Shown one piece after another: positions 1 to 48,189 of a stretch of DNA of 64,000 nt. Under the pieces are notes generated by a model. It saw only the letters and a program-made list of their open reading frames with translations. It made no database searches and was not told the origin of the DNA. The stretch comes from Aliihoeflea aestuarii (GTDB lineage: Bacteria > Pseudomonadota > Alphaproteobacteria > Rhizobiales > Rhizobiaceae), in contig NZ_JAAAMK010000008.1 in NCBI RefSeq assembly GCF_024105665.1, positions 62,001-126,000 on the forward strand, read 5' to 3'. A program made the position numbers and the translations under genes. The first letter of the stretch is position 1. Each line of letters begins with the position of its first letter.

Positions 1-735
1 CTCGGCTGCAAAGCCAGTGAACTGGGCGTCGAACAGATCATCGTCGGTGGCGAACCCGGCGGCGGCATTCCCGCCATCCGGGCCAAGATCGAAGCGGCCT
101 GGGGCGCGAAATGCTGTGAGATGCTGGGCGGCACCGATCTGGGTGTGACCTATTGGGCTGAATGCGATGCCCAGTCGGGGATGCATATGGTCAACATGGA
201 CTACATCATTACCGAATTGCTCGACCCCGAAAGCGGAGAAATCATCCCTTGGGAAAAGGGTGCCGAGGGCGAGATGATCTATACCGCGCTCGGCCGTCGG
301 GCGAGCCCGCTCGTGCGATTCCGGTCGGGCGATTACATCGAGGTTCTCGACACCGACTGCACCTGCGGGCGCACCGGGCCCAAGATCCGCTGCACCGGCC
401 GGACCGACGACATGCTGATCGTGCGCGGGGCCAATGTCTTTCCCTCGGCCATCAACAGCGTGATCACCGAGATGGTGCCGGAGACCAACGGCGTCATGCG
501 CATCGTGGCCGATTTCGAGGGTCACACCACGCAGGGCGCGCTGACGGTGATCGTCGAACGCGGTCCCGACCGCGACGCCGCGGATGACCAGGCGCTCAAG
601 AAGAAAATCGAGCAGCGCCTGCGCGATGCCCTTGTCTTCAAGGCCGACGTTCACCTTGTCGCGCCCGACACCTTTGAGAAACCCGGTGCCGCCAAGGTCG
701 CCTTCGTTCTGAGAGAATATCCGGACCTGCCATGA
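1..735 (+). CDS. PaaK-like phenylacetate-CoA ligase family protein, C-terminal part (operon A)
   Basis: The reading frame is open from base 1, so the 5' end lies outside the window. The visible 244 residues match the C-terminal half of the complete paralogue at 46798-48189. Visible features are the GGEPGGG adenylate-binding loop near the start, the family CxCGR segment (CTCGRTGPK) and the C-terminal GRTDDMLIVRG hinge with its AMP-ligase C-terminal domain. The family activates an aromatic or aliphatic acid to its CoA thioester with ATP; the substrate here is unknown. The stop overlaps the next start (ATGA), which indicates translational coupling to the carboxylase. Family is confident, substrate is not. 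Confidence 0.9.
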   Translation, partial: LGCKASELGVEQIIVGGEPGGGIPAIRAKIEAAWGAKCCEMLGGTDLGVTYWAECDAQSGMHMVNMDYIITELLDPESGEIIPWEKGAEGEMIYTALGRRASPLVRFRSGDYIEVLDTDCTCGRTGPKIRCTGRTDDMLIVRGANVFPSAINSVITEMVPETNGVMRIVADFEGHTTQGALTVIVERGPDRDAADDQALKKKIEQRLRDALVFKADVHLVAPDTFEKPGAAKVAFVLREYPDLP

Positions 736-2339
736 CAAGAATGAAATCCCTTCTCGACACCGGGTCCGACGACTTCCGCGCCAACGACGTGTCTTACCGC
801 GAAAAGGTCGATGAACTACATGCCCTCCGGCTCAAACAGCGCGTCGGCGGCCCCGAAAAGGCGCGCAAACGTCATGTGGACAAAGGCAAAATCCTGCCGC
901 GCGAAAGAATTGAAAGGCTGATCGACCCGGGTACACCATTCCTGGAACTCGGCGAGCTGGCCGGGTTGAACAAATATGAAGGCGTGCCACCGGGCGCGGG
1001 CATCATCACGGGCATCGGTGTGATCGAAGGCCGTCAGTGCATGATCATCGCCAATGATGCCACCGTAAAGGGCGGCACCTATTTCGGCATGACTTCCCGC
1101 AAGCATGTGCGCGCCCAGAAGATCGCATGGAAGAACCGTCTGCCCGTCATCACCCTCGTGGATTCCGGCGGTGCCTTCCTGCCGGATCAGGAAAACATCT
1201 TTCCTGACGAAGGCCAGTTCGGGTCCATCTTTCACCAACAGATCGGCATGTCGGGCGATGGTGTGCCGCAAATCGCCGTGGTCATGGGGCCCTGCACCGC
1301 GGGTGGCGCATATATTCCCGCGCTCTGTGACGAAGTGGTGATCGTGCGCGGTCAGGGCTTTATGTATCTGGGCGGACCGGAATTGACCTTTGCCGCAACC
1401 GGCGAAAAGGTCGAAGCCGAAGAACTGGGTGGCGGCAAGATGCATTCGTCGGTGTCGGGCGTGACCGACCATCTGGCCGAGGATGACGCCCACGCCCTGG
1501 CCATCACCCGCGAGATCGTCAGCCATCTGGGCGAAAAGCCCCGGCCCCGCAAGACGCCCGCCGCGCCGCGCCCGCCGGCCTATCCGGTCGAGGAAATCTA
1601 CGGCATTGTCAGCCGCGATCCCAGGGTGCCGACAGACAACCGCGAGATCGTCGCGCGGCTGGTGGACGGCAGCGATTTTCACGAATTCAAGCCGCTTTAT
1701 GGCGACACGATCATGACCGGCTGGGGGCGCATCCACGGCCACGAGGTCGGGATCATCGCCAATACAGGCGTGCTTTTCGTCGAAGCCGCGCTGAAGGCGA
1801 CGCATTTCATCAATCTCTGCGTCCAGCGTGATATTCCGCTGCTGTTCCTGGCCGATGTGAACGGCTTCATGGTGGGCCGCGAGGTCGAGCAGATGGGCAT
1901 TGCCAAGGCCGGTGCTAAAATGATCACGGCCATGTCTTCGGCCCGGGTGCCGAAATTCACAATCATCACCGGTGGCTCTTACGGCGCGGGATACCTGGCG
2001 ATGCTGGGCCGCCCGTTCCAGCCGGACGCAATGTTCGCCTGGCCGACGGGACGGTCGGCAATCATGGGGCCGGAACAGGCCGCCAGCGTGCTGGCTCAGG
2101 TCCGCGCGCAGATCAACGAACGCGAAGGCAAAAGCTGGACCCCCGAGGAGGAGGAAGCCTTCAAGGCACCGATCCGCAAGGAATACGAAGATTTTCAGGG
2201 GGCCTATAATTTTGCTTCCAACCTTTGGATCGACAGCGTGATCGAGCCCTGTGAGACCCGTGACGTCATGGCGCTGATGCTGGATGTAACATCGCGCAGA
2301 CCCAAGGTCGAAACCAACTTCGGCGTGTTCAGGATGTGA
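732..2339 (+). CDS. Acyl-CoA carboxylase, carboxyltransferase (beta) subunit (operon A)
   Basis: A 535-residue carboxyltransferase with the tandem crotonase-like fold of methylcrotonyl-, geranyl- and propionyl-CoA carboxylase beta subunits. The two oxyanion-hole glycine segments are visible: GPCTAGGAYIP near residue 186 and GGSYGAGYLAM near residue 414. It should transfer carboxyl from biotin on the downstream alpha subunit to an acyl-CoA. Its length and closeness to the MCC/GCC beta type, together with the HMG-CoA-lyase-like gene downstream, favour carboxylation of a 3-methyl-2-enoyl-CoA (inference). The ATG overlaps the ligase stop. By a hand count, roughly 240 of the first 270 residues match the operon B paralogue at 45194-46801. 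Confidence 0.93.
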   Translation: MTRMKSLLDTGSDDFRANDVSYREKVDELHALRLKQRVGGPEKARKRHVDKGKILPRERIERLIDPGTPFLELGELAGLNKYEGVPPGAGIITGIGVIEGRQCMIIANDATVKGGTYFGMTSRKHVRAQKIAWKNRLPVITLVDSGGAFLPDQENIFPDEGQFGSIFHQQIGMSGDGVPQIAVVMGPCTAGGAYIPALCDEVVIVRGQGFMYLGGPELTFAATGEKVEAEELGGGKMHSSVSGVTDHLAEDDAHALAITREIVSHLGEKPRPRKTPAAPRPPAYPVEEIYGIVSRDPRVPTDNREIVARLVDGSDFHEFKPLYGDTIMTGWGRIHGHEVGIIANTGVLFVEAALKATHFINLCVQRDIPLLFLADVNGFMVGREVEQMGIAKAGAKMITAMSSARVPKFTIITGGSYGAGYLAMLGRPFQPDAMFAWPTGRSAIMGPEQAASVLAQVRAQINEREGKSWTPEEEEAFKAPIRKEYEDFQGAYNFASNLWIDSVIEPCETRDVMALMLDVTSRRPKVETNFGVFRM

Positions 2340-2349
2340 GGAGCGAACC

Positions 2350-4356
2350 GTGAAAATCAAGACGCTTCTGATCGCCAACCGCGGCGAAATTGCCTGCCGG
2401 ATCGCGCGCACTGCGCGGGCAAGCGGTATCATTCCCGTCGGCGTGCATTCGCAGGCCGACGTCAATGCCCTGCATGTCCGCGAGATTGGCAAATCTGTCT
2501 GTATCGGCGCCGGACCTGCATCCCAGAGCTATCTGAAAATCGACGCGGTGATTGCCGCTGCGCAATCAGTGGGCGCGGATGCGATCCATCCCGGTTATGG
2601 CTTTCTGGCCGAAAACCCCGATTTTGCTCGTTCGGTCGAAGCCGCCGGCATGATCTTCATGGGGCCGACGCCGGAAACGCTTGAACGTTTCGGCGACAAG
2701 GCCAGCGCCAAAGAGGCCGCCGTGGCGGCCAGCGTCCCGGTGATTTCGGGCGCCGAAGGTGCGCGGTCCGATCCCGAGCAGATTGCCGAGGAGGTGCGCC
2801 AAATGGGCCTGCCGGTGCTGCTCAAGGCGGTCGGCGGCGGTGGTGGGCGCGGACAACGGCTCGTCACTGACGAGACCACGCTGGTCGAGGACATCGAAGG
2901 CGCGCTGCGCGAAGCAAAATCCACCTTCGGCTCCGAAGGGCTGCTGTTGGAGCGTTTCCTGCCCGAGGCGCGCCATGTTGAAGTGCAGATCGCAGGTGAC
3001 GGCAAGGGCCATGTGGTGCATCTGTTCGAACGCGATTGCACGCTTCAGCGCCGCCACCAGAAGGTCATCGAGGAAGCCCCGGCCTGGGGTCTGCCCCGAA
3101 CGCTTCTGGACGACATCGCACGCGACGCGGTGCGCTTGGGCGAAACGCTGGACTATCGCGGGCTGGGCACGGTCGAATTTCTGGTCGCGGGTGGCGAGTA
3201 TTTCTTCCTTGAGGTGAACCCGCGCATTCAGGTGGAACATCCCGTCACCGAAGCGATCACCGGGCTGGACCTTGTCGCGCTTCACCTGCGGATTGCCGAA
3301 GGCGCGGGCCTTGGACTGGTGCAGGACGATCTGACGATCAACGGCCACGCGGTCGAGGCGCGGCTTTACGCCGAAGATCCGGCGATGCAATTCGCCCCGT
3401 CGACGGGCACGCTCTCCACGCTCAGCCTGCCATCGGGCCTGCGCATCGACAGCGGCGTCGAAGAAGGCGATGCCGTCACGCCCTACTACGACCCGATGAT
3501 CGCCAAGCTGATCGTGCACGCGCCCGACCGGGAAACCGCATTGGCACGTCTAGCCACGGCGCTTGATCATGTCGCGGTCGAAGGTGTCGAAACCAATCGC
3601 GCCTTTCTGACGGCGCTGGCGCGAAACCATGAATTCGAACGGATGCAGGTGCATACCCGCTGGATCGACGGCAGGCTGGATGAGCTGACACAGGCACCCG
3701 GCCTGACCCGCCCAGATCTGTGGAAGGCGACCGCTGCCATTCTCTTCGTGACCCAGTCGCGCAGCGACACAGACGCCAATCCCTGGACCAACCGTGATGC
3801 CTTTACCGGCTGGCGGCTTGGACTGGGCGGCGATGCGATTGAAGCGGGGCAGCGCGTGACGCTTACCGATTCTGACGAGGTATCCGAAGAACTGCGCGTC
3901 AGTCCTGTCAAACCGGGTGCCAAGTACACCATCCGTTCGGAGAAAGGCGAGGCGCTGATACTGTCGGCACGTGAACTGACCCCGGGCCGTTGGCGTGTCG
4001 GCGAAGGCGACACCGTCCATCTGATCGACGCGCGCCTGCACGCGGGCGTGATCGAACTGGATACGCCCGAAGGCCGCCTGGTCTTTCGGCCCGCCGCGCC
4101 CCTTGCCTTTGCCGGCGGCGATGCCGCGGCGGATCGCGCCGTGACCTCTCCGCTGACCGGCATGATTGTCGAAATCAAGGTCTCCGACGGTCAGAGCGTG
4201 GCCGAAGGCGACGTGGTCGCGGTCATGGAATCCATGAAACTCGAAATCTCGATCCGGGCGGCCGCGGCCGGGATCGCCAGCAATATATCCGTCTCGAATG
4301 GGGACATGGTCGATCGCGGCCAGGTCATCGCCGAGATCCTGCCATCCGAGGAGTGA
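2350..4356 (+). CDS. Acyl-CoA carboxylase, biotin carboxylase/BCCP (alpha) subunit (operon A)
   Basis: A 668-residue alpha subunit. The biotin carboxylase domain fills about residues 1-450, with an ATP-grasp glycine loop (GGGGGRGQRL) near residue 162. A linker follows, then a C-terminal biotinyl domain with the attachment motif VMESMKLE (biotinylated Lys about residue 630). The start is GTG, ten bases after the carboxyltransferase stop and preceded by GAGGAGCG; the same GTG start and spacing occur in operon B. It carboxylates its own biotin with ATP and bicarbonate. Domain order and length match MccA/AtuF/LiuD-type subunits; the acyl-CoA is unknown. Confidence 0.93.
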   Translation: MKIKTLLIANRGEIACRIARTARASGIIPVGVHSQADVNALHVREIGKSVCIGAGPASQSYLKIDAVIAAAQSVGADAIHPGYGFLAENPDFARSVEAAGMIFMGPTPETLERFGDKASAKEAAVAASVPVISGAEGARSDPEQIAEEVRQMGLPVLLKAVGGGGGRGQRLVTDETTLVEDIEGALREAKSTFGSEGLLLERFLPEARHVEVQIAGDGKGHVVHLFERDCTLQRRHQKVIEEAPAWGLPRTLLDDIARDAVRLGETLDYRGLGTVEFLVAGGEYFFLEVNPRIQVEHPVTEAITGLDLVALHLRIAEGAGLGLVQDDLTINGHAVEARLYAEDPAMQFAPSTGTLSTLSLPSGLRIDSGVEEGDAVTPYYDPMIAKLIVHAPDRETALARLATALDHVAVEGVETNRAFLTALARNHEFERMQVHTRWIDGRLDELTQAPGLTRPDLWKATAAILFVTQSRSDTDANPWTNRDAFTGWRLGLGGDAIEAGQRVTLTDSDEVSEELRVSPVKPGAKYTIRSEKGEALILSARELTPGRWRVGEGDTVHLIDARLHAGVIELDTPEGRLVFRPAAPLAFAGGDAAADRAVTSPLTGMIVEIKVSDGQSVAEGDVVAVMESMKLEISIRAAAAGIASNISVSNGDMVDRGQVIAEILPSEE

Positions 4357-4360
4357 TGAA

Positions 4361-5320
4361 ATGAGCGACTTTCCCAAATTCGTAGAATTTCGTGAAGAAG
4401 GCCCGCGTGAGGGTTTTCAGATCGAAAAGAAGATTTACCCGATCGAAGAGCGGATCGAACTGATCGACATGCTCAGCGAAACCGGCTTGAAACGCATTCA
4501 GGTCGGCAGCTTTGTCAGCCCGAAATACGTTCCTCAGATGGCGGACACCGGCGAGTTGTTCCAGCGTATCAAGCGCAAACCGGGCGTGAACTACACATCG
4601 CTGTGGCTGAACGACAAAGGGTTTCGCAAGGCCCTGACCGCGCATGAGGTCGATATCGACCCGCGTCTGCTGTTCTATCCTTCCGAAGCATTCGCCCAAT
4701 CGAACAACAATTGTTCCTCGGCCGAGATGCGGGAAAAACAACGTGACTGGGTCCGTCTTTACAAGGAAGAGGGATATACCGTCGACGCGGCCTATGTGAT
4801 GACCGCTTTCGGCTGCAACCTCGAGGGCCCCATCCCCCAAGAACGCATCTTGGACGATTTCCGCTTTATCCTTCAGCTATGCGAAGAAGAGAACATCCCC
4901 GTGCCGATCCTCGTGGTCGCCGACACCATGGGTTGGGGAAACCCCGAGGCGGTCAAACGGATGATCGGCGCCCTGCGCGAATTGGCGCCCGAGGCGCGCA
5001 TCGGTATGCACATCCATGACACACGTGGGCTGGGGATCGCCAACGTTTATGCGGCCCTGTCGATGGGCGTGGACATGTTCGAAAGCTCCGTCGCCGGTCT
5101 TGGCGGCTGTCCTTTCGCGGGCCACGGCCACGCGCGCGCCGCAGGAAATGTCTGCACCGAGGATGCAGTGTTCCTGTGTCACGAGCTCGGCATCGAAACC
5201 GGCATTGATCTGGACAAGCTGATCGCAGCGGCGGTCAAAGCAGAAGAGATCATCGGTGTGCCGCTCATGGGCCGGGTCATGCACACCGGCGGGTTGGACA
5301 AATACCGCAAGTCACGCTGA
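4361..5320 (+). CDS. HMG-CoA-lyase-like (DRE-TIM metallolyase) protein with altered catalytic acids (operon A)
   Basis: A 319-residue TIM-barrel protein. I chose the ATG four bases after the carboxylase stop, preceded by GAGGAG, rather than a longer frame overlapping the biotinyl domain. HMG-CoA lyase landmarks are present: GPREGFQ (residues 14-20), SFVSPKYVPQM, the metal-binding HIHDTRG and the Cys loop SSVAGLGGCPF. Against human HMG-CoA lyase, Arg41 is kept (R16) but Asp42 is Glu (E17) and Glu72 is Gln (Q47); the Cys of the GGCP loop and the His-x-His pair are retained. It probably cleaves, or forms, a C-C bond in a branched hydroxyacyl-CoA. The substitutions argue against simple HMG-CoA cleavage. 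Confidence 0.85.
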   Translation: MSDFPKFVEFREEGPREGFQIEKKIYPIEERIELIDMLSETGLKRIQVGSFVSPKYVPQMADTGELFQRIKRKPGVNYTSLWLNDKGFRKALTAHEVDIDPRLLFYPSEAFAQSNNNCSSAEMREKQRDWVRLYKEEGYTVDAAYVMTAFGCNLEGPIPQERILDDFRFILQLCEEENIPVPILVVADTMGWGNPEAVKRMIGALRELAPEARIGMHIHDTRGLGIANVYAALSMGVDMFESSVAGLGGCPFAGHGHARAAGNVCTEDAVFLCHELGIETGIDLDKLIAAAVKAEEIIGVPLMGRVMHTGGLDKYRKSR

Positions 5321-5332
5321 GGGAGCAAGAAG

Positions 5333-6247
5333 ATGACAAAAGCACTTGACGGAAAGGTCGTTCTGGTCACCGGGGCCGGCGGTGGGATCGGGCGTGATAT
5401 CGCCTTGATGGCAGCTACCGAAGGCGCCGCCGTGGTGGTCAATGATCTGGGCGCATCCCTGAAAGGCACCGGTCAGACAGAAACTGCGGCGCAGAAAGTC
5501 GTCGAAGAGATCAGGGCCGCTGGGGGCGATGCCATTGCCGATGGCGGCTCTGTCACCGATCCCGATGCCGCGCGCGCGATGATCGAAGCCGGGGTCAAGG
5601 AATTCGGTCGCATCGACGCGGTGGTAAACAACGCCGGCATTCTGCGCGACGGTTACTTCCACAAGATGACCTATGAGGATTTCGACGCGGTGGTGAAGGT
5701 CCATCTTTATGGTGCCTTCAATACCAGCCGCGCGGCCGCCGACTATTTCCGCGAACAGGAAAGCGGCGCGCTCGTGCACATGACCTCGACCTCGGGGCTG
5801 ATCGGCAATCTGGCGCAGGCGAATTATTCGGCGGCAAAGCTGGGCATCGCGGCCTTCTCGAAATCGGTAGCGCTCGACCTGAAACGCTGGAACGTGCGGT
5901 CAAACTGCATCGCGCCCTTCGCCTGGAGCCGGATGATATCGTCGATCAAGACCGACACGGAGGAACAGAAGGCGCGGGTCGAGAAGGTCAAGAAGATGAC
6001 CCCCGCCAAGGTCGCGCCGATGGCCTGTTACCTGATGAGCGACCGCGCGGCGGATGTGTCGGGGCAAATCTTTGCAGTGCGGATGAACGAGATATTCCTG
6101 TTCAACCAGCCCCGCCCGCTCCGGTCCGTCCACTCCGGTGACGGCTGGACCGCCGATGAAATCGCCGAGCGCGCCATTCCCGCGCTCAAATCGCAATTCA
6201 CACCGCTCGAAGTTTCGGCGGATGTCTTTTCGTGGGATCCGGTCTAA
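5333..6247 (+). CDS. SDR family 3-hydroxyacyl-CoA dehydrogenase, MFE-2/HSD17B4-like (operon A)
   Basis: A 304-residue short-chain dehydrogenase. It has TGAGGGIG (residues 13-20) for NAD(P), NNAG (99-102) and catalytic Tyr165-x3-Lys169. The long C-terminal extension and the GASLKGTG region resemble the dehydrogenase domain of peroxisomal multifunctional enzyme 2, which oxidises (R)-3-hydroxyacyl-CoA. That fits a partner of the FAS1/MaoC-type hydratase at the end of the operon, whose family usually makes (R)-hydroxyacyl-CoA (inference). GGGAGC precedes the ATG. The TAA overlaps the next ATG (TAATG). Confidence 0.88.
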   Translation: MTKALDGKVVLVTGAGGGIGRDIALMAATEGAAVVVNDLGASLKGTGQTETAAQKVVEEIRAAGGDAIADGGSVTDPDAARAMIEAGVKEFGRIDAVVNNAGILRDGYFHKMTYEDFDAVVKVHLYGAFNTSRAAADYFREQESGALVHMTSTSGLIGNLAQANYSAAKLGIAAFSKSVALDLKRWNVRSNCIAPFAWSRMISSIKTDTEEQKARVEKVKKMTPAKVAPMACYLMSDRAADVSGQIFAVRMNEIFLFNQPRPLRSVHSGDGWTADEIAERAIPALKSQFTPLEVSADVFSWDPV

Positions 6248-7041
6248 TGGGAAAACGCAAAGAAAAAATCAGCTCCGACATTGCCTGGAGCACCCCCGAC
6301 AAGATCTGCGTGCGCGGGCTCGACTTGCCGAACGAAATCCTCGGCCACATGAACCTGGGCGATCTGGCCTTTCTGCAATTGACGGGCCGCAAGGCCACGC
6401 TCGAGGAAAGCCGCGTCTTCAACGCCATCATCATCACCCTTGTCGAACATGGCATCACGCCATCGGCCCTGGCGGCGCGGATGACCTATATGGGGGCGCC
6501 GGAATCGCTTCAGGCGGCTGTGGCGGCTGGCTTGTGTGGGCTGGGCACCGTCTTTGTCGGTTCTATGGAAGGTGCCTCGAAAATGCTTTACGAGGCACTG
6601 CCACAGGACAAGTTGGGCACCGGTGTCGATCTGGATGCGCTGGCCGTCGAGACGGTGGAAAAATTCCGCGCCCGCAAGATGATCGTGCCGGGGCTCGGAC
6701 ATCCGGTGCACAAGCCGGTCGATCCGCGCACACCTCGCCTGTTCCAGATCGCTGCCGAGAACGGCAAGTCCGGTGAATACATCGAGTTGATCCAGAAAAT
6801 TCAGGCCGTTGCCGAAGAAAAATCGGGTAAGATGCTGCCGATTAACGCCACCGGGGCGATCGGAGCAATCTGCTGTGAATTTGGCTTCCCCTGGAAGATC
6901 GTGCGGGGCTTTGGCGTCATGGCACGCGCCATCGGTCTGGTCGGTCATATCCTCGAAGAGAGCGAAAACCCGATTTCCTATGAGCTTTGGCAGCGTGCCG
7001 AGCAGGAAATTCTTGAAACGTCGGGTTCAGGAGCGAAGTAA
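6247..7041 (+). CDS. Citryl-CoA-lyase-like protein, citrate synthase fold, catalytic Asp replaced (operon A)
   Basis: A 264-residue protein of the citrate synthase superfamily, like the C-terminal citryl-CoA lyase domain of ATP-citrate lyase. The start is the ATG overlapping the SDR stop. The two family histidines are present in EHG (His68) and GLGHPVHK (His152). The loop that carries the third catalytic residue, NVDG in ACLY, reads NATG here (Thr202 for Asp), and the operon B paralogue is identical at this site. The family makes or breaks C-C bonds next to a CoA thioester. The missing Asp suggests altered chemistry or a non-catalytic role. Fold is confident, reaction is not. Confidence 0.82.
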   Translation: MGKRKEKISSDIAWSTPDKICVRGLDLPNEILGHMNLGDLAFLQLTGRKATLEESRVFNAIIITLVEHGITPSALAARMTYMGAPESLQAAVAAGLCGLGTVFVGSMEGASKMLYEALPQDKLGTGVDLDALAVETVEKFRARKMIVPGLGHPVHKPVDPRTPRLFQIAAENGKSGEYIELIQKIQAVAEEKSGKMLPINATGAIGAICCEFGFPWKIVRGFGVMARAIGLVGHILEESENPISYELWQRAEQEILETSGSGAK

Positions 7042-7044
7042 CCG

Positions 7045-8208: not shown

Positions 8209-8219
8209 AGGCCAGGATT

Positions 8220-9059
8220 ATGGGTGAGATCGACCTTGACGCGCTGGCGCCCTGGCTGGGACGCACCGAGACTAAAGAAGACGTTCTGACGGAGGGGCTG
8301 ATCGACAAATTCCGCGCCACGCTCGGTCCGCATCTTTGGGACGGATCAGGCGATGTCCCGCTGGGAATTCATTGGTGCATTTCCCTTGATACCGTGCCAG
8401 CGACCGCCCTGTCAGAAGACGGCCATGCCGCAAGGGGTGGATTCCTACCCCCTGTCCCGCTGCCCGCCCGGATGTGGGCCGGCGGCGATGTTAAACATAT
8501 CGCGCCGCTGAAAATCGGCGAAACCATCACCCGGCGCTCTTCGATCAGGGATATTGTGGCCAAGCAGGGCCGTAGTGGACCATTGGTGTTTGTGACCGTC
8601 GAACATGAGTATCTGAGTGGCAACCGGCTTTGTATCCGGGAGCAGCAAACGATCGTTTATCGTGAGATTTCCACCCCCCGCACGGGCGAGAGCGCAGCTG
8701 ACGCGGGTGACCCCACCACGCTTAGATCGACGCTGACACCGGATCCTGTTCTTCTGTTTCGCTATTCGGCGCTGACGTTCAATGCCCATCGCATTCACTA
8801 TGATTACGTCTACGCCACCGAAACCGAAGCCTATTCCGGGCTTGTTGTGCATGGCCCATTGCAGGCCACGCTGCTTCTGAATCTGGCGGCGGATGCGTTG
8901 AAAACATCGCCCCACCGGTTTTCGTTCCGCGGCCTCGCGCCACTCACCCTGCCCTGCGAATTGCAACTGCACAATGAAGAGACCGGCACCTCCGGGACAG
9001 TCTGGTGTCAGGATCAAAACGGTCTTCGAAGCTTTTCCGCAGAGTACGCGGCTGTCTGA
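8220..9059 (+). CDS. FAS1-type/HTD2-like (double hot-dog) enoyl-CoA hydratase (operon A)
   Basis: A 279-residue protein of the family that includes mesaconyl-C4-CoA/3-methylfumaryl-CoA hydratase and mitochondrial HTD2. The start is the ATG eleven bases after the ACAD stop; a longer overlapping frame was rejected. An N-terminal FAS1_DH_region-type hot-dog (GGFLPPVPLPARMWAGG) is followed by a MaoC-type half with FNAHRIHYD around residues 187-195, typical of the hydratase His/Asp site. It should hydrate a 2-enoyl-CoA, possibly the carboxylated dioyl-CoA from the carboxylase, replacing the crotonase-type hydratase of leucine degradation (inference). It is the last gene of operon A. Confidence 0.85.
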   Translation: MGEIDLDALAPWLGRTETKEDVLTEGLIDKFRATLGPHLWDGSGDVPLGIHWCISLDTVPATALSEDGHAARGGFLPPVPLPARMWAGGDVKHIAPLKIGETITRRSSIRDIVAKQGRSGPLVFVTVEHEYLSGNRLCIREQQTIVYREISTPRTGESAADAGDPTTLRSTLTPDPVLLFRYSALTFNAHRIHYDYVYATETEAYSGLVVHGPLQATLLLNLAADALKTSPHRFSFRGLAPLTLPCELQLHNEETGTSGTVWCQDQNGLRSFSAEYAAV

Positions 9060-10051: not shown

Positions 10052-10055
10052 CGGC

Positions 10056-39272: not shown

Positions 39273-39316
39273 CCGCGCTCTTCCCGTTCCAGATTGCCGC
39301 GCCAGCACGAGGCGCC

Positions 39317-40480: not shown

Positions 40481-40483
40481 TCG

Positions 40484-41287
40484 TCACCTAGCTCTGTGCG
40501 CGCCAGTGCCGCTAGTCTCCAGGATCTCCTCTTCAGCGCGCTGCCATATTTCGTAGGAAATCGGATTTTCGCTCTCCTCGAGGATATGGCCCACCAGCCC
40601 GATCGCGCGTGCCATCACCCCGAAGCCACGCACGATCTTCCATGGGAAGCCGAACTCGCAGCAGATAGCGCCGATTGCGCCGGTGGCGTTGATCGGCAGC
40701 ATCTTGCCTGACTTATCTTCGGCCACGGCCTGAATTTTCTGGATCAGCGCGACATATTCGCCGGACTTGCCGTTCTCGGCCGCAATCTGGAAAAGCCGCG
40801 GCGCGCGGGGATCGACCGGCTTGTGCACCGGATGGCCCAGCCCCGGCACGATCGCCTTGCGGGCGCGGAATTTTTCGACCGTTTCAGCGGCGATAGCATC
40901 CAGATCTGCGCCGGTGCCCAGCTTGTCCTGCGGCAGTGCCTCGTACAGCATCTTTGAGGCGCCTTCCATCGAGCCGACGAACACCGTGCCCAACCCACAG
41001 AGCCCCGCCGCGACTGCGGCCTGAAGCGATTCCGGCGCGCCCATATAGGTCATGCGCGCGGCCAGGGCGGACGGCGTGATACCATGTTCCACGAGCGTGA
41101 TGACGATGGCGTTGAATACCCGGCTCTCGTCGGGCGTGGCCTTGCGGCCCGTCAACTGGAGAAACGCCAGATCGCCGAGGTTCATGTGGCCCAGGATCTC
41201 GTTCGGCAGGTCGAGTCCGCGCACGCAGATCTTATCGGGTGTGCTCCAGCCGATATTCGACGTAATTTTTTGTTTGCGCTTGCTCAT
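40484..41287 (-). CDS. Citryl-CoA-lyase-like protein, catalytic Asp replaced (operon B)
   Basis: 267 residues. The ATG overlaps the SDR stop (ATGA), so a TTG three bases earlier was rejected. It shares the EHG and GLGHPVHK histidines and the NATGAIGA loop with the operon A copy, including Thr where the citrate synthase/ACLY family has catalytic Asp. Conservation of that change in two diverged copies argues against random decay. It is very similar to the operon A protein except at the C-terminal tail. Confidence 0.82.
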   Translation of the reverse strand: MSKRKQKITSNIGWSTPDKICVRGLDLPNEILGHMNLGDLAFLQLTGRKATPDESRVFNAIVITLVEHGITPSALAARMTYMGAPESLQAAVAAGLCGLGTVFVGSMEGASKMLYEALPQDKLGTGADLDAIAAETVEKFRARKAIVPGLGHPVHKPVDPRAPRLFQIAAENGKSGEYVALIQKIQAVAEDKSGKMLPINATGAIGAICCEFGFPWKIVRGFGVMARAIGLVGHILEESENPISYEIWQRAEEEILETSGTGAHRAR

Positions 41288-42201
41288 CAAACCGGATCCC
41301 AGGAAAAGACGTCCGCCGAAACTTCAAGCGGCGTGAAATGCGACTTGAGCGCGGGAATGGCATGCTCGGCGATCGTTTCGGCGGTCCAGCCGTCGCCGGA
41401 ATGCACGGAACGCACCGGCCGCGGCTGGCTCATCAGGAAGATCTCGTTCATCCGAACGGCAAAGATCTGGCCCGAGATCTCTGCGGCCTGATCGCTCATC
41501 AGATAGCAGGCCATCGGCGCGACCTTGGCGGGCGTCATCTTCTTGATCTTATCGACCCGCGCCTCCTGTTCCGGCGTGTCGGTCTTGATCGAGGAAATCA
41601 TCCGGCTCCAGGCGAAGGGCGCGATGCAGTTGGACCGCACGTTCCAGCGTTTGAGGTCGAGCGCGACGGATCTCGAAAAGGCCGCAATGCCCAGTTTGGC
41701 CGCCGAATAGTTCACCTGGGCGTAATTGCCGATCAGGCCCGAGGTCGAGGTCATGTGCACCAGCGCGCCGCCTTCCTGCTCGCGGAAATAATCAGTCGCG
41801 GCGCGCGAGGTATTGAAGGCGCCGTAGAGGTGTACTTTCACCACCGCATCGAAGTCCTCGTGGCTCATCTTGTGAAAGAAGCCGTCGCGCAGGATTCCGG
41901 CATTGTTCACGACTGCATCGATGCGGCCGAATTCCTTCACGGCGGCCTCGACCATGGCCCGGGCCGCGTCCGGGTCGGTTACGCTGCCGCCATCGACGAT
42001 GGCGTCGCCACCGGCGGCCTTGATCTCGTCCACCACCGTTTGCGCAGCAGTGAGAGTGTGGCCAGTACCCTTCAGTGACGCGCCCAAATCGTTGACTACG
42101 ACCGACGCTCCCTCGGCTGCCGCCATCAGCGCGATCTCGCGGCCGATCCCGCCGCCCGCGCCAGTGACCAGCACGACCTTTCCGTCCAGCGTTTTTCCCA
42201 T
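41287..42201 (-). CDS. SDR family 3-hydroxyacyl-CoA dehydrogenase, MFE-2-like (operon B)
   Basis: 304 residues, the same length as the operon A SDR. It has TGAGGGIG, NNAG and NYSAAK with catalytic Tyr and Lys, and the same long C-terminal extension ending in ADVFSWDPV. GAGGAGATTGAT precedes the ATG. It is positioned between the two lyase-like genes, as in operon A. Confidence 0.88.
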   Translation of the reverse strand: MGKTLDGKVVLVTGAGGGIGREIALMAAAEGASVVVNDLGASLKGTGHTLTAAQTVVDEIKAAGGDAIVDGGSVTDPDAARAMVEAAVKEFGRIDAVVNNAGILRDGFFHKMSHEDFDAVVKVHLYGAFNTSRAATDYFREQEGGALVHMTSTSGLIGNYAQVNYSAAKLGIAAFSRSVALDLKRWNVRSNCIAPFAWSRMISSIKTDTPEQEARVDKIKKMTPAKVAPMACYLMSDQAAEISGQIFAVRMNEIFLMSQPRPVRSVHSGDGWTAETIAEHAIPALKSHFTPLEVSADVFSWDPV

Positions 42202-42211
42202 ATCAATCTCC

Positions 42212-43171
42212 TCATTTCGCCTTGCGAAACTTGTCGAGTCCGCCGGAATGCATCACCCGGCCCATCAGGGGCGCGCCGATGATCTCTTCGGCCTTGACCG
42301 CGGCGGCGATCAGCTTGTCCAGGTCGATGCCCGTCTCGATGCCCAGCTCGTGGCACAAAAAAACCGCGTCCTCGGTGCAGACATTGCCTGCGGCGCGGGC
42401 GTTGCCGTGGCCGGCGAAGGGGCAGCCGCCAAGGCCGGCGACCGAGCTTTCGAACATATCCACCCCCATCGACAACGCCGCATGGATGTTGGCGATGCCC
42501 AGCCCGCGCGTGTCGTGAAGATGCATTCCGATGCGCGCCCCGGGCGCAAGCTCGCGCAGGGCGCCGACCATGCGCTTGACCGCCTCTGGGTTGCCCCAGC
42601 CCATCGTGTCGGCGATCACGAGGATAGGTACCGGAATATCCTCTTCCTCGCAAAGTTGGAGGACAAAGCGGAAGTCGTTCAGGACCTGCTCCTGCGGAAT
42701 CGGTCCCTGCAGGTTGCAGCCGAACGCGGTCATCACATAGGCCGCATCGACGGTGTAGCCCGCTTCCTTGTAGAGCCGCACCCACTCGCGCTGCCGCTCG
42801 CGCATCTCCGCTGAGGAGCAGTTGTTGTTTGCCTGTGCGAAAGCTTCAGACGGATAGAATAAAAGACGCGGGTCGATATCGACTTCATGCGCGGTCAACG
42901 CCTTGCGGAACCCCTTCTCGTTCAGCCAGAGCGAGGTGTATTTCACACCGGACTTGCGCTTGATGCGCTGGAACAGCTCGCCCGTATCAGACATCTGCGG
43001 CACGTATCTGGGGCTGACGAAGCTGCCCACCTGGATGCGCTTCAGTCCTGTATCGCTGAGCATGTCGATCAGTTCGATCCGCTGTTCGATCGGGTAGGTC
43101 TTGCTTTCGATCTGAAAGCCCTCGCGCGGGCCCTCTTCACGAAACTCTACGAACTTGGGAAAATCGCTCAT
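42212..43171 (-). CDS. HMG-CoA-lyase-like protein with altered catalytic acids (operon B)
   Basis: 319 residues, equal to the operon A copy. The ATG overlaps the carboxylase stop. GPREGFQ and KRIQVGSFVSP show the same Glu-for-Asp and Gln-for-Glu substitutions at the human Asp42 and Glu72 positions. HLHDTRG (HIHDTRG in copy A) and GGCPF are kept. The loop GCPFAGHGNARAAGN is a few residues longer than the human GCPYAQGASGN loop in both copies. Confidence 0.85.
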   Translation of the reverse strand: MSDFPKFVEFREEGPREGFQIESKTYPIEQRIELIDMLSDTGLKRIQVGSFVSPRYVPQMSDTGELFQRIKRKSGVKYTSLWLNEKGFRKALTAHEVDIDPRLLFYPSEAFAQANNNCSSAEMRERQREWVRLYKEAGYTVDAAYVMTAFGCNLQGPIPQEQVLNDFRFVLQLCEEEDIPVPILVIADTMGWGNPEAVKRMVGALRELAPGARIGMHLHDTRGLGIANIHAALSMGVDMFESSVAGLGGCPFAGHGNARAAGNVCTEDAVFLCHELGIETGIDLDKLIAAAVKAEEIIGAPLMGRVMHSGGLDKFRKAK

Positions 43172-45183
43172 GCCTGTTCCTTTTCGGGTGGTATGATCTC
43201 GGCGATCATCTGACCGCGATCCACCATCATGCCTTTGGACACCGCAACATTCGCGGCCATGCCGGAGGCAGATGCCTTGATGGAGATCTCGAGCTTCATT
43301 GATTCCAGGACCGCTACGACATCGCCCTCCGTTATCGCGTCGCCTTCGGACACTTTGACGTCGACGATCATTCCGGTTAGTGGCGAGACGACGATCCTTT
43401 CGGCAGCGCTGTCGCCGCCGGCCGAGGCCAAGGGTGGTGCCGGGCGGAAGACAAGCCGGCCCGGCGCAGCGTCGATCTCGATCACCTCGGAATGAAGGCG
43501 CGCGGTTGCCATGTCTACCGTCTCGCCACGCGCCACGCGCCACCGGCCCGGCGCGATCTCACGGCAGGAGAAAGTGAGGGCGGTACCGTCGCTGCCGTAG
43601 ACCGTGTAGGTGTCGCCGGAGCGGACCGGACCGACGCAGAGCTCCTCAAACCTTCCCGCTGCGTCGGTCAGCATCACGCGCTGGCCCGCCTCCATTGCGT
43701 CGCCGCCAAGGCCGAGCCGCCAGTTGGTAAAGAGGTCGCGGTTCGACCAAGGTTCGGCGGCGCCGTCTGAGCGCCCGCGGGTGACGAAAAGCACCGCTGC
43801 CATGGCCTTCCAGAGCCGGGCGCCCGGCACTTTCGCCGCCGCGGTCAGATCGTCCAGCCGCTCGTCGATCCAGCGGGTGTGGACGTTCATTTTCCCGAAA
43901 TCGGCGTTGCGGGCGAGCGCGGCGAGGAAGGCGCGGTTGGTCTCGACGCCTTCGACCGCGACATGATCCAGCGACAGCGCGAGCCGCGCCAGCGCTGTCT
44001 CGCGGTCGGGCGCGTGGATGATCAGCTTGGCGATCATCGGATCGTAGTAGGGGGTGACGGCATCGCCTACCTCGACGCCGCTGTCGATGCGCAGACCGTC
44101 GGGCAGGCTCAACGTGGTCAGCGTGCCGGTGGAAGGAGCGAATTGCATCGACGGGTCCTCGGCATAGAGCCGTGCCTCGATGGCGTGACCGTCAATCGTC
44201 AGATCGTCTTGCTTCAGGCCAAGGCCCGCACCCTCGGCAATACGCAGATGCAACGCCACGAGGTCGAGCCCGGTGATCGCCTCGGTCACGGGATGTTCCA
44301 CCTGGATGCGCGGGTTCACCTCGAGGAAAAAATAATCCTCGCCCGCCACCAGGAACTCCACCGTGCCGAGCCCGCGGTAGTCGAGCGTCTCCCCCAGCCG
44401 CACGGCGTCCTGGGCGATCCGTTCGAGCAGGTCGCGGGGCAGCCCCCAGGCGGGGGCTTCCTCGATCACCTTCTGATGCCGGCGCTGCAGCGTGCAATCG
44501 CGCTCGAAAAGATGCACGACGTGGCCCTTGCCATCGCCGGCGATCTGCACCTCCACATGGCGGGCCTCGGGGAGGAACCGTTCCAGCAGGAGACCTTCCG
44601 AGCCGAAGGTAGACTTCGCCTCGCGCAGCGCACCCTCGATGTCGGTCATCAGGGTCTTTTCGTCTGCCACCAACCGCTGTCCACGTCCGCCGCCGCCGCC
44701 CACGGCCTTGAGCAGCACGGGCAGCCCCATCCGGCGCACTTCGGCGGCGATTTGATCGGGATCGGACAGGGCGCCCGCGGCGCCCGAGATCACCGGCAGG
44801 CCGGCCGCGATGGCGGCATCCTTGGCGCTGGCCTTGTCGCCGAACCGTTCCAGGGTTTCCGGCGTCGGTCCGATGAAGATCAGACCGGCGGCCTCGACCG
44901 CGCGGGCGAATTCGGGGTTCTCGGCGAGGAAACCGTAGCCGGGATGGACGGCGTCGGCCCCGGTGGCCTTCGCCGCGGCCAGCACGGCGTCGATGCGTAG
45001 ATAGCTTTCCGAGGCCGGCCCGCCGCCGATGCAGATCGAGTGGCCGATCTCGCGCACGTGGAGCGCGTTTACGTCGGCTTCGGAATGTACGGCGACAGGC
45101 CGGACGCCCCGTATCCGCGCCGTGCGGGCGATCCGGCAGGCGATTTCGCCGCGGTTGGCGATGAGAAGCGTCTTGATCTTCAC
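43168..45183 (-). CDS. Acyl-CoA carboxylase, biotin carboxylase/BCCP subunit (operon B)
   Basis: 671 residues. The start is GTG at 45183, ten bases after the carboxyltransferase stop and after GAGGCGG, exactly as in operon A; a longer frame into the upstream gene was rejected. The ATP-grasp loop GGGGGRGQRL and the biotinyl motif VLESMKLE are present. Its stop overlaps the HMG-CoA-lyase-like start. Confidence 0.93.
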   Translation of the reverse strand: MKIKTLLIANRGEIACRIARTARIRGVRPVAVHSEADVNALHVREIGHSICIGGGPASESYLRIDAVLAAAKATGADAVHPGYGFLAENPEFARAVEAAGLIFIGPTPETLERFGDKASAKDAAIAAGLPVISGAAGALSDPDQIAAEVRRMGLPVLLKAVGGGGGRGQRLVADEKTLMTDIEGALREAKSTFGSEGLLLERFLPEARHVEVQIAGDGKGHVVHLFERDCTLQRRHQKVIEEAPAWGLPRDLLERIAQDAVRLGETLDYRGLGTVEFLVAGEDYFFLEVNPRIQVEHPVTEAITGLDLVALHLRIAEGAGLGLKQDDLTIDGHAIEARLYAEDPSMQFAPSTGTLTTLSLPDGLRIDSGVEVGDAVTPYYDPMIAKLIIHAPDRETALARLALSLDHVAVEGVETNRAFLAALARNADFGKMNVHTRWIDERLDDLTAAAKVPGARLWKAMAAVLFVTRGRSDGAAEPWSNRDLFTNWRLGLGGDAMEAGQRVMLTDAAGRFEELCVGPVRSGDTYTVYGSDGTALTFSCREIAPGRWRVARGETVDMATARLHSEVIEIDAAPGRLVFRPAPPLASAGGDSAAERIVVSPLTGMIVDVKVSEGDAITEGDVVAVLESMKLEISIKASASGMAANVAVSKGMMVDRGQMIAEIIPPEKEQA

Positions 45184-45193
45184 TGTCACCGCC

Positions 45194-46801
45194 TCACATC
45201 CTGAACACGCCGAAATGGGTTTCGACCTTTGGTCGCCGTGAGGTGATGTCGAGCAGCAGCGCCATGACCTCACGGGTCTCGCAGGGCTCGATCACGCTGT
45301 CGACCCAGAGGTTCGAGGCGAAGTTGTAGGCGCCCTGGAAATCCTCGTATTCCTTGCGGATAGGCGCCTTGAAGGCCTCTTCCTCCTCCTTCGTCCATGT
45401 CTTGCCCTCGCGCTCGTTGATCTGGGCGCGCACCTGGGCCAATACGCTCGCCGCCTGTTCCGGCCCCATGATCGCAGCGCGGCCGGTCGGCCAGGCGAAC
45501 ATCGCGTCGGGCTGGAAGGGGCGGCCCAACATGGCCAGGTATCCTGCTCCGTAAGAACCCCCGGTGATGATGGTGAACTTCGGCACCCGCGCCGAGGACA
45601 TGGTGGTGATCATCTTGGCGCCCGCCTTGGCGATTCCCATCTGCTCGACCTCGCGGCCCACCATGAAGCCGTTGACATCGGCCAGGAACAGCAGCGGAAT
45701 ATCGCGCTGCACGCAGAGATTGATGAAATGCGTGGCCTTCAGCGCCGCTTCGACGAACAGCACGCCGGTATTGGCGAGAATCCCCACCTCGTGCCCGTGA
45801 ATGCGGCCCCAGCCGGTCATCAAAGTGTCGCCGTAGAGCGGTTTGAACTCGTGGAAATCGCTGCCGTCGACCAGCCGCGCCACGATCTCGCGGTTCTCGG
45901 TGGGTACTTTGGGGTCCCGGCTGACGATGCCGTAGATCTCTTCTACCGCGTAGGCCGGGTCGCGCGGCGACGCCGGCGTCTTGCGCGGGGAGTGCTTCTC
46001 GCCCAGGTGCTTGACGATTTCTCGCGTAATGGCGAGCGCGTGGGCGTCGTCCTCGGCGAGATGGTCGGTCACGCCCGAGACCGAGCAGTGCATCTTGCCG
46101 CCGCCGAGGGTCTCGTTGTCGACCTTCTCCCCAGTGGCGGCGAAGGTGAGTTCCGGCCCGCCGAGATACATGAAGCCCTGGCCGCGCACGATGACCACCT
46201 CGTCGCAAAGCGCCGGGATATAGGCGCCGCCGGCGGTGCAGGGGCCCATGACCACGGCGATCTGCGGCACGCCGTCGCCCGACATCCCGACCTGGTTGTG
46301 AAATATCGAGCCGAACTGGCCCTCGTCGGGAAAGATGTTCTCCTGGTCAGGCAAAAACGCGCCGCCGGAATCGACCAGTGTGACGACCGGCAGGCGATTG
46401 GCCCAGGCGATCTGCTGGGCGCGCACGTGCTTACGGCAGGTCATGCCGAAATAGGTGCCGCCCTTCACCGTGGCGTCGTTGGCGATGATCATGCAGTGGC
46501 GGCCCTCAATCACGCCGATGCCAGTGATGATGCCCGCGCCGGGCGGCACGCCGTCGTACTTGTCGAGCCCGGCGAGTTCGCCGAGCTCGAGGAACGGCGT
46601 GCCCGGGTCGATCAGCCGCTCGACGCGCTCGCGCGGCAGGAACTTGCCCTTCTTCACGTGGCGCGCCCGTGCGCTTTCCGGCCCGCCGACGCGTTGGCTG
46701 AGCCGCAGCGCGTGCAGCTCGGCCACTTTGGCGCGGTAATGCGTGTCATTGGCCCGGAAGTCTTCCGACCCGGTGTCGACCACGGATTTCAGCTTCGTCA
46801 T
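45194..46801 (-). CDS. Acyl-CoA carboxylase, carboxyltransferase subunit (operon B)
   Basis: 535 residues, identical in length to the operon A subunit. GPCTAGGAYIP and GGSYGAGYLAM are conserved. The ATG overlaps the ligase stop (ATGA), the same junction as in operon A. The two beta subunits match at roughly nine in ten positions over the N-terminal half by eye, so they probably share a substrate class. Confidence 0.93.
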   Translation of the reverse strand: MTKLKSVVDTGSEDFRANDTHYRAKVAELHALRLSQRVGGPESARARHVKKGKFLPRERVERLIDPGTPFLELGELAGLDKYDGVPPGAGIITGIGVIEGRHCMIIANDATVKGGTYFGMTCRKHVRAQQIAWANRLPVVTLVDSGGAFLPDQENIFPDEGQFGSIFHNQVGMSGDGVPQIAVVMGPCTAGGAYIPALCDEVVIVRGQGFMYLGGPELTFAATGEKVDNETLGGGKMHCSVSGVTDHLAEDDAHALAITREIVKHLGEKHSPRKTPASPRDPAYAVEEIYGIVSRDPKVPTENREIVARLVDGSDFHEFKPLYGDTLMTGWGRIHGHEVGILANTGVLFVEAALKATHFINLCVQRDIPLLFLADVNGFMVGREVEQMGIAKAGAKMITTMSSARVPKFTIITGGSYGAGYLAMLGRPFQPDAMFAWPTGRAAIMGPEQAASVLAQVRAQINEREGKTWTKEEEEAFKAPIRKEYEDFQGAYNFASNLWVDSVIEPCETREVMALLLDITSRRPKVETHFGVFRM

Positions 46802-48189
46802 GGCAGATCGGGGTACTTTCTCAACACGAAGGCCACTTTGGCCGCGCCCGGCTTTTCGAAGGTGTTGGCATCGACGATCCGGACATCGGCCCGGAACACC
46901 AGGGCGTCGCGCAGGCGCTGCTCGATCTTCTTCTTCAGGTTCGCGTCACCATCTCGGTCGCGGTCGGGACCGCGTTCGACGATGATCTTCAGTGGTTCTT
47001 GCGTGGTGTGGCCCTCGAAATCGGCCACCACACGCATCACGCCGTTCGTTTGCGGCACCATCTCGTTGACGATGCTGTTGATCGCCGAGGGAAACACGTT
47101 GGCCCCGCGCACGATCAGCATGTCGTCGGTGCGCCCTGTGCAGCGGATCTTGGGACCCGACCGGCCGCAGGCGCAGGTCGTGCCCAAGACCTCGATGAAA
47201 TCGCCAGAGCGGAAGCGCACCAGCGGGCTCGCCCGGCGGCCGAGGGCGGTGTAGATCATCTCGCCACTGGCGCCCTCCGCCCAAGGGATGATCTTGCCGG
47301 TCTCGGGATCGAGCAGTTCGGTCAAAACGTAGTCCATGTTGACCATGTGCATGCCCGACTGCTGGTCACACTCGGCCCAGTAGGTCACGCCCAGGTCGGT
47401 ACCGCCCAGCATCTCGGTGCACTTGGCGCCCCACAGTTTTTCGATCTTGGCGCGGATCGCCGGAATGCCGCCGCCCGGCTCCCCGCCGACGACGACTCGT
47501 TCCACGCCCAGTCTGCTCGCTGGAACGCCCAGCACCTCTTCGGCCTTTTCGGCCAGGTGGATCACGAAATTCGGCGCCCCGACGACGCAGCGCGGGCGCG
47601 TGTCGGCGCAGGCGCGCAGGAGCCGGTCGGCGCCGCCGTCGGCTCCCACCGGCACGTCGATGGAGCCCATATATTGCAGGCCTTGCATCACCGGGATGCC
47701 GCCTACGAAGCCCTTGGCGAGCGAGAAGGCGTGCAGCACCATGTCGCCGGGCCGCACGCCGTTGGCGAAGAAGCAGCGCGCCGTCATCTCGTGCCACATC
47801 TCGGCATCGGATTCTGTCAACGCCACGTAGGAGGGGCTGCCGGTCGTCCCCGAGGACGCCTGCATCTGGATGATGTCTTCCACGGGCGCGGCGCGGTGGC
47901 GGCCGAAAGGCGGCTCGGCCGACAGGCTTTCGCGTATCTCGGTCTTGTAGGTGAAGGGCAGCCTCTGCAGATCCTCAATGGTGCGGATCTCATCGAAATC
48001 GATGCCGGCCGCATCGAACTTGTCTTGGTAGAAGGGCGAGTTGGCCTTGAGATAGGCCATCTGCTCGACCAGCCGCTCCTCCTGGATGCGGCGCACCTCG
48101 TCGAGCGGCATACCCTCGATCTCGTGCCAGAACCGGTCGTTGGCCTTCGCGCCGGCATCGGCCCGCCGGAAGCGCATTCCGTGTTGCAT
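46798..48189 (-). CDS. PaaK-like phenylacetate-CoA ligase family protein (operon B, complete)
   Basis: 463 residues. The nucleotide-binding motif is ASSGTTGSPS (residues 111-120), the adenylate loop is GGEPGGGIP, and the C-terminal GRTDDMLIVRG is present. CACGRSGPK carries the family Cys pattern. GGGAGGAAAGC precedes the ATG. It is the first gene of operon B proper, 24 bases after the ACAD at 48214. It represents the full-length form of the partial ligase at the window start. Confidence 0.92.
   Translation of the reverse strand: MQHGMRFRRADAGAKANDRFWHEIEGMPLDEVRRIQEERLVEQMAYLKANSPFYQDKFDAAGIDFDEIRTIEDLQRLPFTYKTEIRESLSAEPPFGRHRAAPVEDIIQMQASSGTTGSPSYVALTESDAEMWHEMTARCFFANGVRPGDMVLHAFSLAKGFVGGIPVMQGLQYMGSIDVPVGADGGADRLLRACADTRPRCVVGAPNFVIHLAEKAEEVLGVPASRLGVERVVVGGEPGGGIPAIRAKIEKLWGAKCTEMLGGTDLGVTYWAECDQQSGMHMVNMDYVLTELLDPETGKIIPWAEGASGEMIYTALGRRASPLVRFRSGDFIEVLGTTCACGRSGPKIRCTGRTDDMLIVRGANVFPSAINSIVNEMVPQTNGVMRVVADFEGHTTQEPLKIIVERGPDRDRDGDANLKKKIEQRLRDALVFRADVRIVDANTFEKPGAAKVAFVLRKYPDLP

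Follow-up and report, generated by a model that had tools for sequence, protein, structure and literature searches.

Two apparently xenologous versions of an acyl-CoA carboxylase/lyase operon on one contig of Aliihoeflea aestuarii

The described systems closest to the operon considered here are the Liu and Atu pathways, cyclohexanecarboxylate degradation (Ali/Bad), itaconate degradation (Ict-Ich-Ccl) and the monoterpene island of Castellaniella defragrans. The operon is present twice, as copies A and B, in a 64,000-nucleotide stretch of the Aliihoeflea aestuarii genome (the window), which comprises bases 62001-126000 of contig NZ_JAAAMK010000008.1 (here C24; 198.3 kb) in a 4.1-Mb assembly of 25 contigs. 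We number its genes from 0 to 8: an acyl-CoA dehydrogenase (ACAD0), a PaaK-like acyl-CoA ligase (gene 1), a carboxyltransferase, a biotin carboxylase, an HMG-CoA-lyase-like (HMGL-like) protein, a short-chain dehydrogenase/reductase (SDR), a citryl-CoA-lyase-like (CCL-like) protein, a second acyl-CoA dehydrogenase (ACAD7, gene 7) and a FAS1-like hydratase (gene 8). The reading we prefer, with a probability of roughly 60%, is that a plasmid carries two xenologous clusters, that a transporter/beta-oxidation block once belonging to B has been replaced by that of the segment carrying A, and that the operon has a Liu/Atu-like function.

The Liu pathway likewise brings together a carboxylase pair of the 3-methylcrotonyl-CoA carboxylase (MCC) type, an acyl-CoA dehydrogenase and an HMG-CoA-lyase family protein. 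However, the operon has in addition a PaaK-like ligase, a MaoC/FAS1-type hydratase, a CCL-like protein and an SDR, its HMGL-like protein is altered at two positions (Asp42 to Glu and Glu72 to Gln), and the genome has other carboxylase and HMG-CoA lyase genes. The Atu scheme, as outlined in one account (PMC4847356), proceeds by gamma-carboxylation, hydration and lyase cleavage of a beta-methyl-enoyl-CoA, and the operon follows the same logic; in contrast to that pathway, AtuA was not found among the window genes scanned (one lies in another cluster of the plasmid), and the carboxyltransferase scores geranyl-CoA carboxylase below MCC. The resemblance to the Ali/Bad pathway lies in a dehydrogenase gene upstream of the operon that is close to TIGR03207, but the operon has a carboxylase and two lyase-family proteins, and no BadI is among the models shown. 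The lyase of itaconate degradation is CitE-type, whereas that of the operon belongs to the citrate-synthase family and is accompanied by a carboxylase; the likeness here is in gene 8, with its PDB matches 8huc and 8khg. The C. defragrans island, in the part of its description that we cite (PMC4109377), is likewise a catabolic island with acyl-CoA dehydrogenases, a 2,4-dienoyl-CoA reductase, an acetoacetyl-CoA synthetase and a 'citrate lyase', although a carboxylase and an HMG-CoA lyase are not in its Table 1. No description of this gene set was found in searches of an open-access library, in agreement with an earlier note on this DNA, made from the sequence alone, that knew of no characterised pathway with exactly this set.

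The two operons are colinear, with A at window positions 1-9059 (+) and B at 38433-48189 (-). They had been noted as an eight-gene operon present twice in inverted orientation; both copies and their common order stand, but the genes number nine, with ACAD0 5′ of the ligase in each copy (92% identical over 376 aa). Operon A extends to the left beyond the window with the remainder of the ligase gene and ACAD0, the latter without its first ~10 codons. Across genes 1-7 the DNA of A and B is 80.4% identical (window 21-8208 to 47512-39317; 8,209 columns, BLASTN), and the proteins are 84% (ligase), 91% (carboxyltransferase), 79% (biotin carboxylase), 90% (HMGL-like), 88% (SDR), 93% (CCL-like) and 89% (ACAD7) identical. 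The matching protein lengths reported before hold (535/535, 319/319, 304/304, 387/387 and 279/279). Also shared, as noted, are the ATGA in which the ligase and carboxyltransferase genes overlap, the GTG start of the biotin carboxylase and a 10-base gap, equal in size but different in its letters. Small length differences are seen between the two biotin carboxylases (668 and 671 aa) and between the two CCL-like proteins (264 and 267 aa, counted from ATG). Gene 8 is only 50% identical between A and B, next to neighbours at ~90%, and its synonymous sites are saturated; it appears either to evolve faster or to be exchanged. Gene 8 is also missing at some loci. For genes 0-7 the synonymous divergence (Ks) between A and B is 0.81-1.14 and Ka/Ks is 0.045-0.138. 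By these Ks values the divergence is old, and the low Ka/Ks speaks for selection on both lineages before A and B met. The suggestion that the two copies had been kept by selection is not supported for the pair itself: A is too recent to tell, and a transposon truncates its first gene.

The relationships of the two copies were examined by scanning a genome collection with the CCL-like protein of B, which gave 201 relatives, from which the best 80 loci were kept. A tree of four concatenated proteins included A, B and the 68 of these 80 loci that have all four, reduced to 56 rows when identical rows were dropped. In this comparison, which the earlier note had called for, A groups with Roseobacteraceae and B stands beside Mesorhizobium sediminum. 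More precisely, in this tree, made by a quick method with midpoint root and no bootstrap, A is identical in the four proteins to Sedimentitalea nanhaiensis and Lutimaribacter pacificus and lies in a 45-row clade (support 94) dominated by Roseobacteraceae and Paracoccaceae, to which other families contribute three rows, and B is sister to M. sediminum (98) in a six-row clade (100) that is mostly Rhizobiales. Operon A is part of a 31,060-bp segment (segment A; from L011:8184, which lies 1,817 bases left of the window, as far as window position 29243), which differs from the Sulfitobacter alexandrii plasmid NZ_CP018081, conjugative by PLSDB typing, by five mismatches and one gap (99.98%). Because of this near-identity, copy A is a recent arrival; B represents the Rhizobiales version. 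Within the stretches compared, Sedimentitalea, Lutimaribacter and Salipiger pentaromativorans have near-identical copies whose similarity extends to these two ends. The first 24 kb of the window is matched in part by 112 records of a plasmid collection, 28 of which cover at least 80% of it. A repC gene lies on C24 at 44234, so C24 is probably a RepABC plasmid; together with the near-identical copy on the plasmid of another order, this is the pattern of a transferred plasmid-borne cluster. We conclude that A and B appear to be xenologous versions of one widespread catabolic cluster and not a local duplication. Thus, of the 'old duplication or second acquisition' that had been offered as explanations, the second acquisition stands (different clades, A recent) and an old duplication in this genome does not, even though the divergence itself is old. 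Nor do the genes have unrelated origins, an outcome the earlier note had allowed for; they are orthologous and arrived by different routes.

Both ends of segment A (junctions C24:60184 and C24:91243) adjoin mobile elements. At the left end stands one of the terminal inverted repeats (~34 bp, 97%) that bound a Tn3-family transposon (L011:3083-8186) with a transposase and a resolvase in it, and this repeat ends inside the ACAD0 gene of operon A, replacing its first ~10 codons. The right end adjoins TniQ, TniB and transposase genes, and the same stretch lies beside cluster B in genome G326 (99.8%). Roseobacter copies have a dehydrogenase gene and a hydratase gene 5′ of ACAD0; neither is found in the 8.2 kb left of segment A, and the cyclohexanecarboxyl-CoA-dehydrogenase-like gene of B is the only one in the genome (E ≤ 1e-60). 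Transposable elements on both sides, and near-identity to a plasmid of another order, might also result from an assembly artefact in which a contaminating Roseobacteraceae piece was mis-joined to the host plasmid. However, the Tn3-family transposon and the TniB/TniQ element occur in one copy each in this assembly, so repeat-driven misassembly is unlikely; moreover, the listed contamination is 0.03, and the left joint is a Tn3 inverted repeat inside ACAD0 that is not in the compared roseobacter copy L044, and we regard such an artefact as quite improbable. Still less credible, and in fact rejected here, is a local duplication and inversion inside the plasmid followed by divergence: it would explain the shared gene order, overlaps and lengths and the inverted orientation in one contig, but each copy is far nearer to other bacteria than to its partner (A, 99.98% over 31 kb with the Sulfitobacter plasmid; B, 97.3% over 18.2 kb with M. 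sediminum), and the tree places the two in different clades.

Cluster B is 97.3-97.4% identical to M. sediminum and genome G060, which is from the host's family, over 36935-55142, 98.5% identical to G326 over 35205-55147, and 96.2% identical to a Nitratireductor thuwali plasmid. In all four relatives a liv-type transporter/beta-oxidation block lies beyond the ligase and dienoyl-reductase genes, whereas none is found there in the window. The block is flanked in G060, G326 and M. sediminum by a direct repeat of 373-408 bp (94-95%) consisting of the 3′ end of the ligase gene and the following DNA, and the window keeps a single stretch of this repeat (54736-55142, the 3′ end of the AMP-dependent ligase gene amp2 and beyond), which matches both block ends. 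A homologous block is present in segment A (9302-21405, 77% identical). Because G326, the nearest relative of B (98.4%), carries the block, its loss in the window is favoured as the simpler reading, by parsimony only. B would have lost the block by recombination between the ~400-bp direct repeats; segment A, between the Tn3-family transposon and the TniB/TniQ-type element, would now supply what is missing in B, and the second operon would be a passenger of segment A. The clusters of G060 (L164, L165, L017) and M. sediminum (L107, L016) are themselves 99.95% identical over 32,187 bp, so either these genomes are closely related or a recent move of the cluster took place there too. The B-type cluster of the N. 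thuwali plasmid has a ring-hydroxylating dioxygenase pair nearby (L169:34910-36678).

The enzyme families encoded by the operon were compared with solved structures and curated models. The carboxyltransferase and biotin carboxylase form an MCC-type pair, whose best PDB relatives include AccD1 and MCC beta; the carboxyltransferase of B scores 590.8 bits with MCC beta (3u9r) versus 430.4 with geranyl-CoA carboxylase beta (5ikl). The HMGL-like protein belongs to the HMG-CoA-lyase family and keeps HxHDT and, in 73 of 73 orthologues, the Cys signature AGLGGCP, but it does not have the canonical active site: GPREG replaces GPRDG in all 73 (Asp42 to Glu, human numbering), and Gln replaces Glu in RIQVGSF(VSP) in 71 (Glu72 to Gln; the other two were unmatched by the pattern). 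We take Asp42 and Glu72 to be catalytic, and these invariant changes would point to altered C-C bond chemistry. The CCL-like protein matches the NCBIfam citryl-CoA lyase subfamily NF004868 with 355.1 bits (cut-off 193) and 6hxp with E 2e-32, and it has NATG (83 of 85 sequences by pattern, plus L100 by eye) in place of the NVDG seen in the solved citryl-CoA and ATP-citrate lyases shown; the Asp of NVDG is presumably catalytic. In the wider family this Asp is visible in 3 of the 49 relatives listed, two of these without a clear motif, and the idea that its loss is special to this operon was dropped, since most of the wider family listed also lacks it. ACAD7 has Pro at the Glu position of FadE3 and GLNAER in 70 of 71 sequences, a Glu arrangement that we take to be as in isovaleryl-CoA dehydrogenase. 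For gene 8, which is of FAS1-DH/MaoC type, the only PDB matches are 8huc (E 2.8e-58) and itaconyl-CoA hydratase 8khg (1.9e-57), which places it in the itaconyl-CoA-hydratase sequence family; the hydratase gene upstream of ACAD0 is of the crotonase family.

Taken together, the operon is consistent with a Liu/Atu-like scheme acting on a beta-branched acid that may be alicyclic or isoprenoid, with the alicyclic hint coming from the upstream dehydrogenase. In this scheme the PaaK-like ligase would form the CoA ester, the dehydrogenases would produce the 2-enoyl-CoA, the biotin enzyme would add CO2 onto the gamma carbon, and the MaoC-type hydratase would add water at the beta carbon; the HMGL-like protein, the CCL-like protein or both would then cleave the tertiary alcohol to acetyl-CoA and a keto acid, which would be re-activated and thiolysed. 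Several points weigh against the combined picture of replaced block and branched-acid route. The direct repeats on either side of the block could also stem from its insertion in the relatives, and loss of the block after it had become redundant fits equally well. Because segment A is without the upstream dehydrogenase, the hydratase and the native ACAD0 start, operon A may be unexpressed, and the junctions of segment A are known from one assembly, without reads. The function is predicted from sequence families, and with both the HMGL-like and the CCL-like protein lacking residues thought to be catalytic, the lyase steps may be misassigned.

Other functions were considered for the operon. A redundant leucine/isovalerate (liu) operon would be consistent with a carboxyltransferase nearest AccD1/MCC in the PDB, an HMG-CoA-lyase family protein and the ACAD7 Glu position, presumably as in isovaleryl-CoA dehydrogenase. 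However, a PaaK-like ligase, a CCL-like protein and a MaoC-type hydratase do not belong to liu, and contig C1 has a 52%-identical carboxyltransferase with a biotin carboxylase and an acyl-CoA dehydrogenase nearby and, 90 kb away, a canonical HMG-CoA lyase with RDG and FEATSF motifs; because of these C1 genes, whose role in leucine degradation is inferred, we consider a second liu operon improbable. Carbon dioxide fixation by a variant of the reverse citrate cycle, suggested by the NF004868 score of the CCL-like protein, is given a very slim chance, given its NATG motif and catabolic neighbours; no citryl-CoA synthetase is annotated in the S. alexandrii operon, although an 'acetate--CoA ligase family protein' adjoins the 43%-identical CCL-like gene of that genome. 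A route for an alicyclic acid, in which the carboxylase acts on a ring carbon beside a double bond and an HMGL- or CCL-like lyase cuts the ring or side chain with no need for an oxygenase, is a more serious competitor, though still an unlikely one. It would suit the PaaK-type ligase, the dienoyl-CoA-reductase-type enzyme, the conserved upstream gene close to cyclohexanecarboxyl-CoA dehydrogenase, and the fact that no oxygenase is annotated in the S. alexandrii stretch. Yet the TIGR03207 score of that upstream gene (529.8 bits; next model, 237) is under the curated cut-off of 575.35, the 25 best models shown for each of three hydratases do not include BadI, a ring-hydroxylating dioxygenase does lie near the N. 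thuwali plasmid cluster, and the chemistry is read from genes. More tentative again is a fuller version of this idea, an oxygenase-free route for alicyclic or cyclic-terpenoid acids that would be plasmid-borne between orders of marine bacteria, its broken versions patched by imported homologous blocks; here the biotin enzyme would carboxylate a ring or branch carbon, and the altered HMG-CoA-lyase homologue and the Asp-less citrate-synthase-fold protein would break the C-C bond at a fully substituted carbon.

The gene set is common among marine bacteria. In a search of 394 Rhizobiaceae genomes, six including the host have matches to the CCL-like protein at E ≤ 1e-100, the host alone has two such matches, and the four congeners listed have none. 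Across the class, 35 of 385 genomes match at E ≤ 1e-30, with more than 45% identity only in the host and G686 (92%); across the phylum 18 of 398 match, the nearest after the host being G1132 (71%) and G1089 (58%). Among 29 genomes (the host and 28 from the 80 loci), two copies at 91% identity or more are found in the host and Chachezhania antarctica, and the second copy of Paracoccus sp. M683 is at 76%. The two C. antarctica loci (L058, L076) are one full A-type operon and a remnant with only genes 5-7. Gene order was counted in the 66 of 80 loci with enough flank, with genes required to be on the same strand and at least 50% identical. The order 0-8 is complete in 45 loci and the seven-gene core 0-6 is in order in 62; the four without it comprise two that lack the SDR and two remnants, and one locus lacks ACAD7 alone. 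ACAD7 and gene 8 form a variable tail. The wider cluster includes a divergent dienoyl-CoA-reductase-like gene and, upstream, the cyclohexanecarboxyl-CoA-dehydrogenase-like gene and a hydratase, and the transporter block follows gene 8 in A-type clusters and lies on the opposite side in B-type clusters.

Because these 201 stretches encode a CCL-like relative and near copies lie on plasmids of marine bacteria, several of them from algae, the operon may represent an undescribed acid-degradation route common in the sea. The near-identical segment in another order is clear evidence that an entire catabolic segment was transferred recently, and A and B, together with the missing block, indicate how catabolic clusters may be broken and patched.

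Table 1. Positions of genes and segments in the window.
Feature	Position	Strand	Remark
Operon A PaaK-like acyl-CoA ligase, 3′ part	1-735	+	463 aa in full; gene start at L011:9344, 657 bases left of the window
Operon A carboxyltransferase, 535 aa	732-2339	+	
Operon A biotin carboxylase with biotin carrier, 668 aa	2350-4356	+	GTG start
Operon A HMGL-like, 319 aa	4361-5320	+	from MSDFPKF
Operon A SDR dehydrogenase, 304 aa	5333-6247	+	
Operon A CCL-like, 264 aa	6247-7041	+	from ATG; NATG for NVDG
Operon A ACAD7, 387 aa	7045-8208	+	
Operon A FAS1-DH/MaoC-type hydratase (gene 8), 279 aa	8220-9059	+	from MGEIDLD
Segment A transporter/beta-oxidation block	9215-21405	+	liv-type ABC transporter, acyl-CoA synthetase, SDR, enoyl-CoA hydratase, thiolase, acyl-CoA dehydrogenase
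CoA-transferase gene	about 16962-18065	-	inside segment A block
Segment A, part in window	1-29243		whole 31,060 bp, from L011:8184
TniQ, TniB, Mu/rve-type transposase element	29254-32842		right edge of segment A
IS4/5-family transposase	36013-36801	-	low-coordinate edge (36935) of DNA common to M. sediminum
MmgE/PrpD-family gene	37010-38398	-	3′ of operon B; kept in M. sediminum, G060, G326 and N. thuwali
Operon B hydratase (gene 8), 279 aa	38433-39272	-	itaconyl-CoA-hydratase-like
Operon B ACAD7, 387 aa	39317-40480	-	
Operon B CCL-like, 267 aa	40484-41287	-	
Operon B SDR dehydrogenase, 304 aa	41287-42201	-	
Operon B HMGL-like, 319 aa	42212-43171	-	
Operon B biotin carboxylase with biotin carrier, 671 aa	43168-45183	-	GTG start
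Operon B carboxyltransferase, 535 aa	45194-46801	-	
Operon B PaaK-like ligase, 463 aa	46798-48189	-	
Operon B ACAD0, ninth gene, 386 aa	48214-49374	-	from MDFTLN
Enoyl-CoA hydratase/isomerase	49389-50168	-	5′ of operon B; start set by 780-bp annotated relatives
Acyl-CoA dehydrogenase	50165-51346	-	close to cyclohexanecarboxyl-CoA dehydrogenase (TIGR03207)
2,4-dienoyl-CoA-reductase/old-yellow-enzyme-type flavoenzyme	51422-53473	+	conserved divergent neighbour
AMP-dependent acyl-CoA ligase amp2, 521 aa	53470-55035	+	
Acetyl/acetoacetyl-CoA-synthetase-like ligase, 645 aa	57102-59039	-	under the cut-offs of both models
TetR-family regulator	60012-61319	+	two TetR_N matches; annotated too in the Sagittula MA-2 plasmid cluster

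In Sagittula MA-2 the operon is on plasmid p5. The phenanthrene cluster of this strain is on plasmid p6, according to its description (PMC11705938), and a link between the two was rejected since they lie on different plasmids. A second CCL-like gene, 43% identical, is found ~28 kb downstream in roseobacter genomes with an A-type cluster (L102, about 2447-3211; genomes of L043-L046) and is absent from this host. Beyond the right edge of the window, the contig also carries an atu-like cluster (L012:4285-9910) with AtuA (L012:4285-6312), a biotin carboxylase and a carboxyltransferase 44% identical to that of B. A fourth acyl-CoA-carboxylase cluster extends from L012:18485 to L013:13994, with a carboxyltransferase 48% identical to that of B and liv-type-transporter-like genes, so that four such clusters are carried on one contig.

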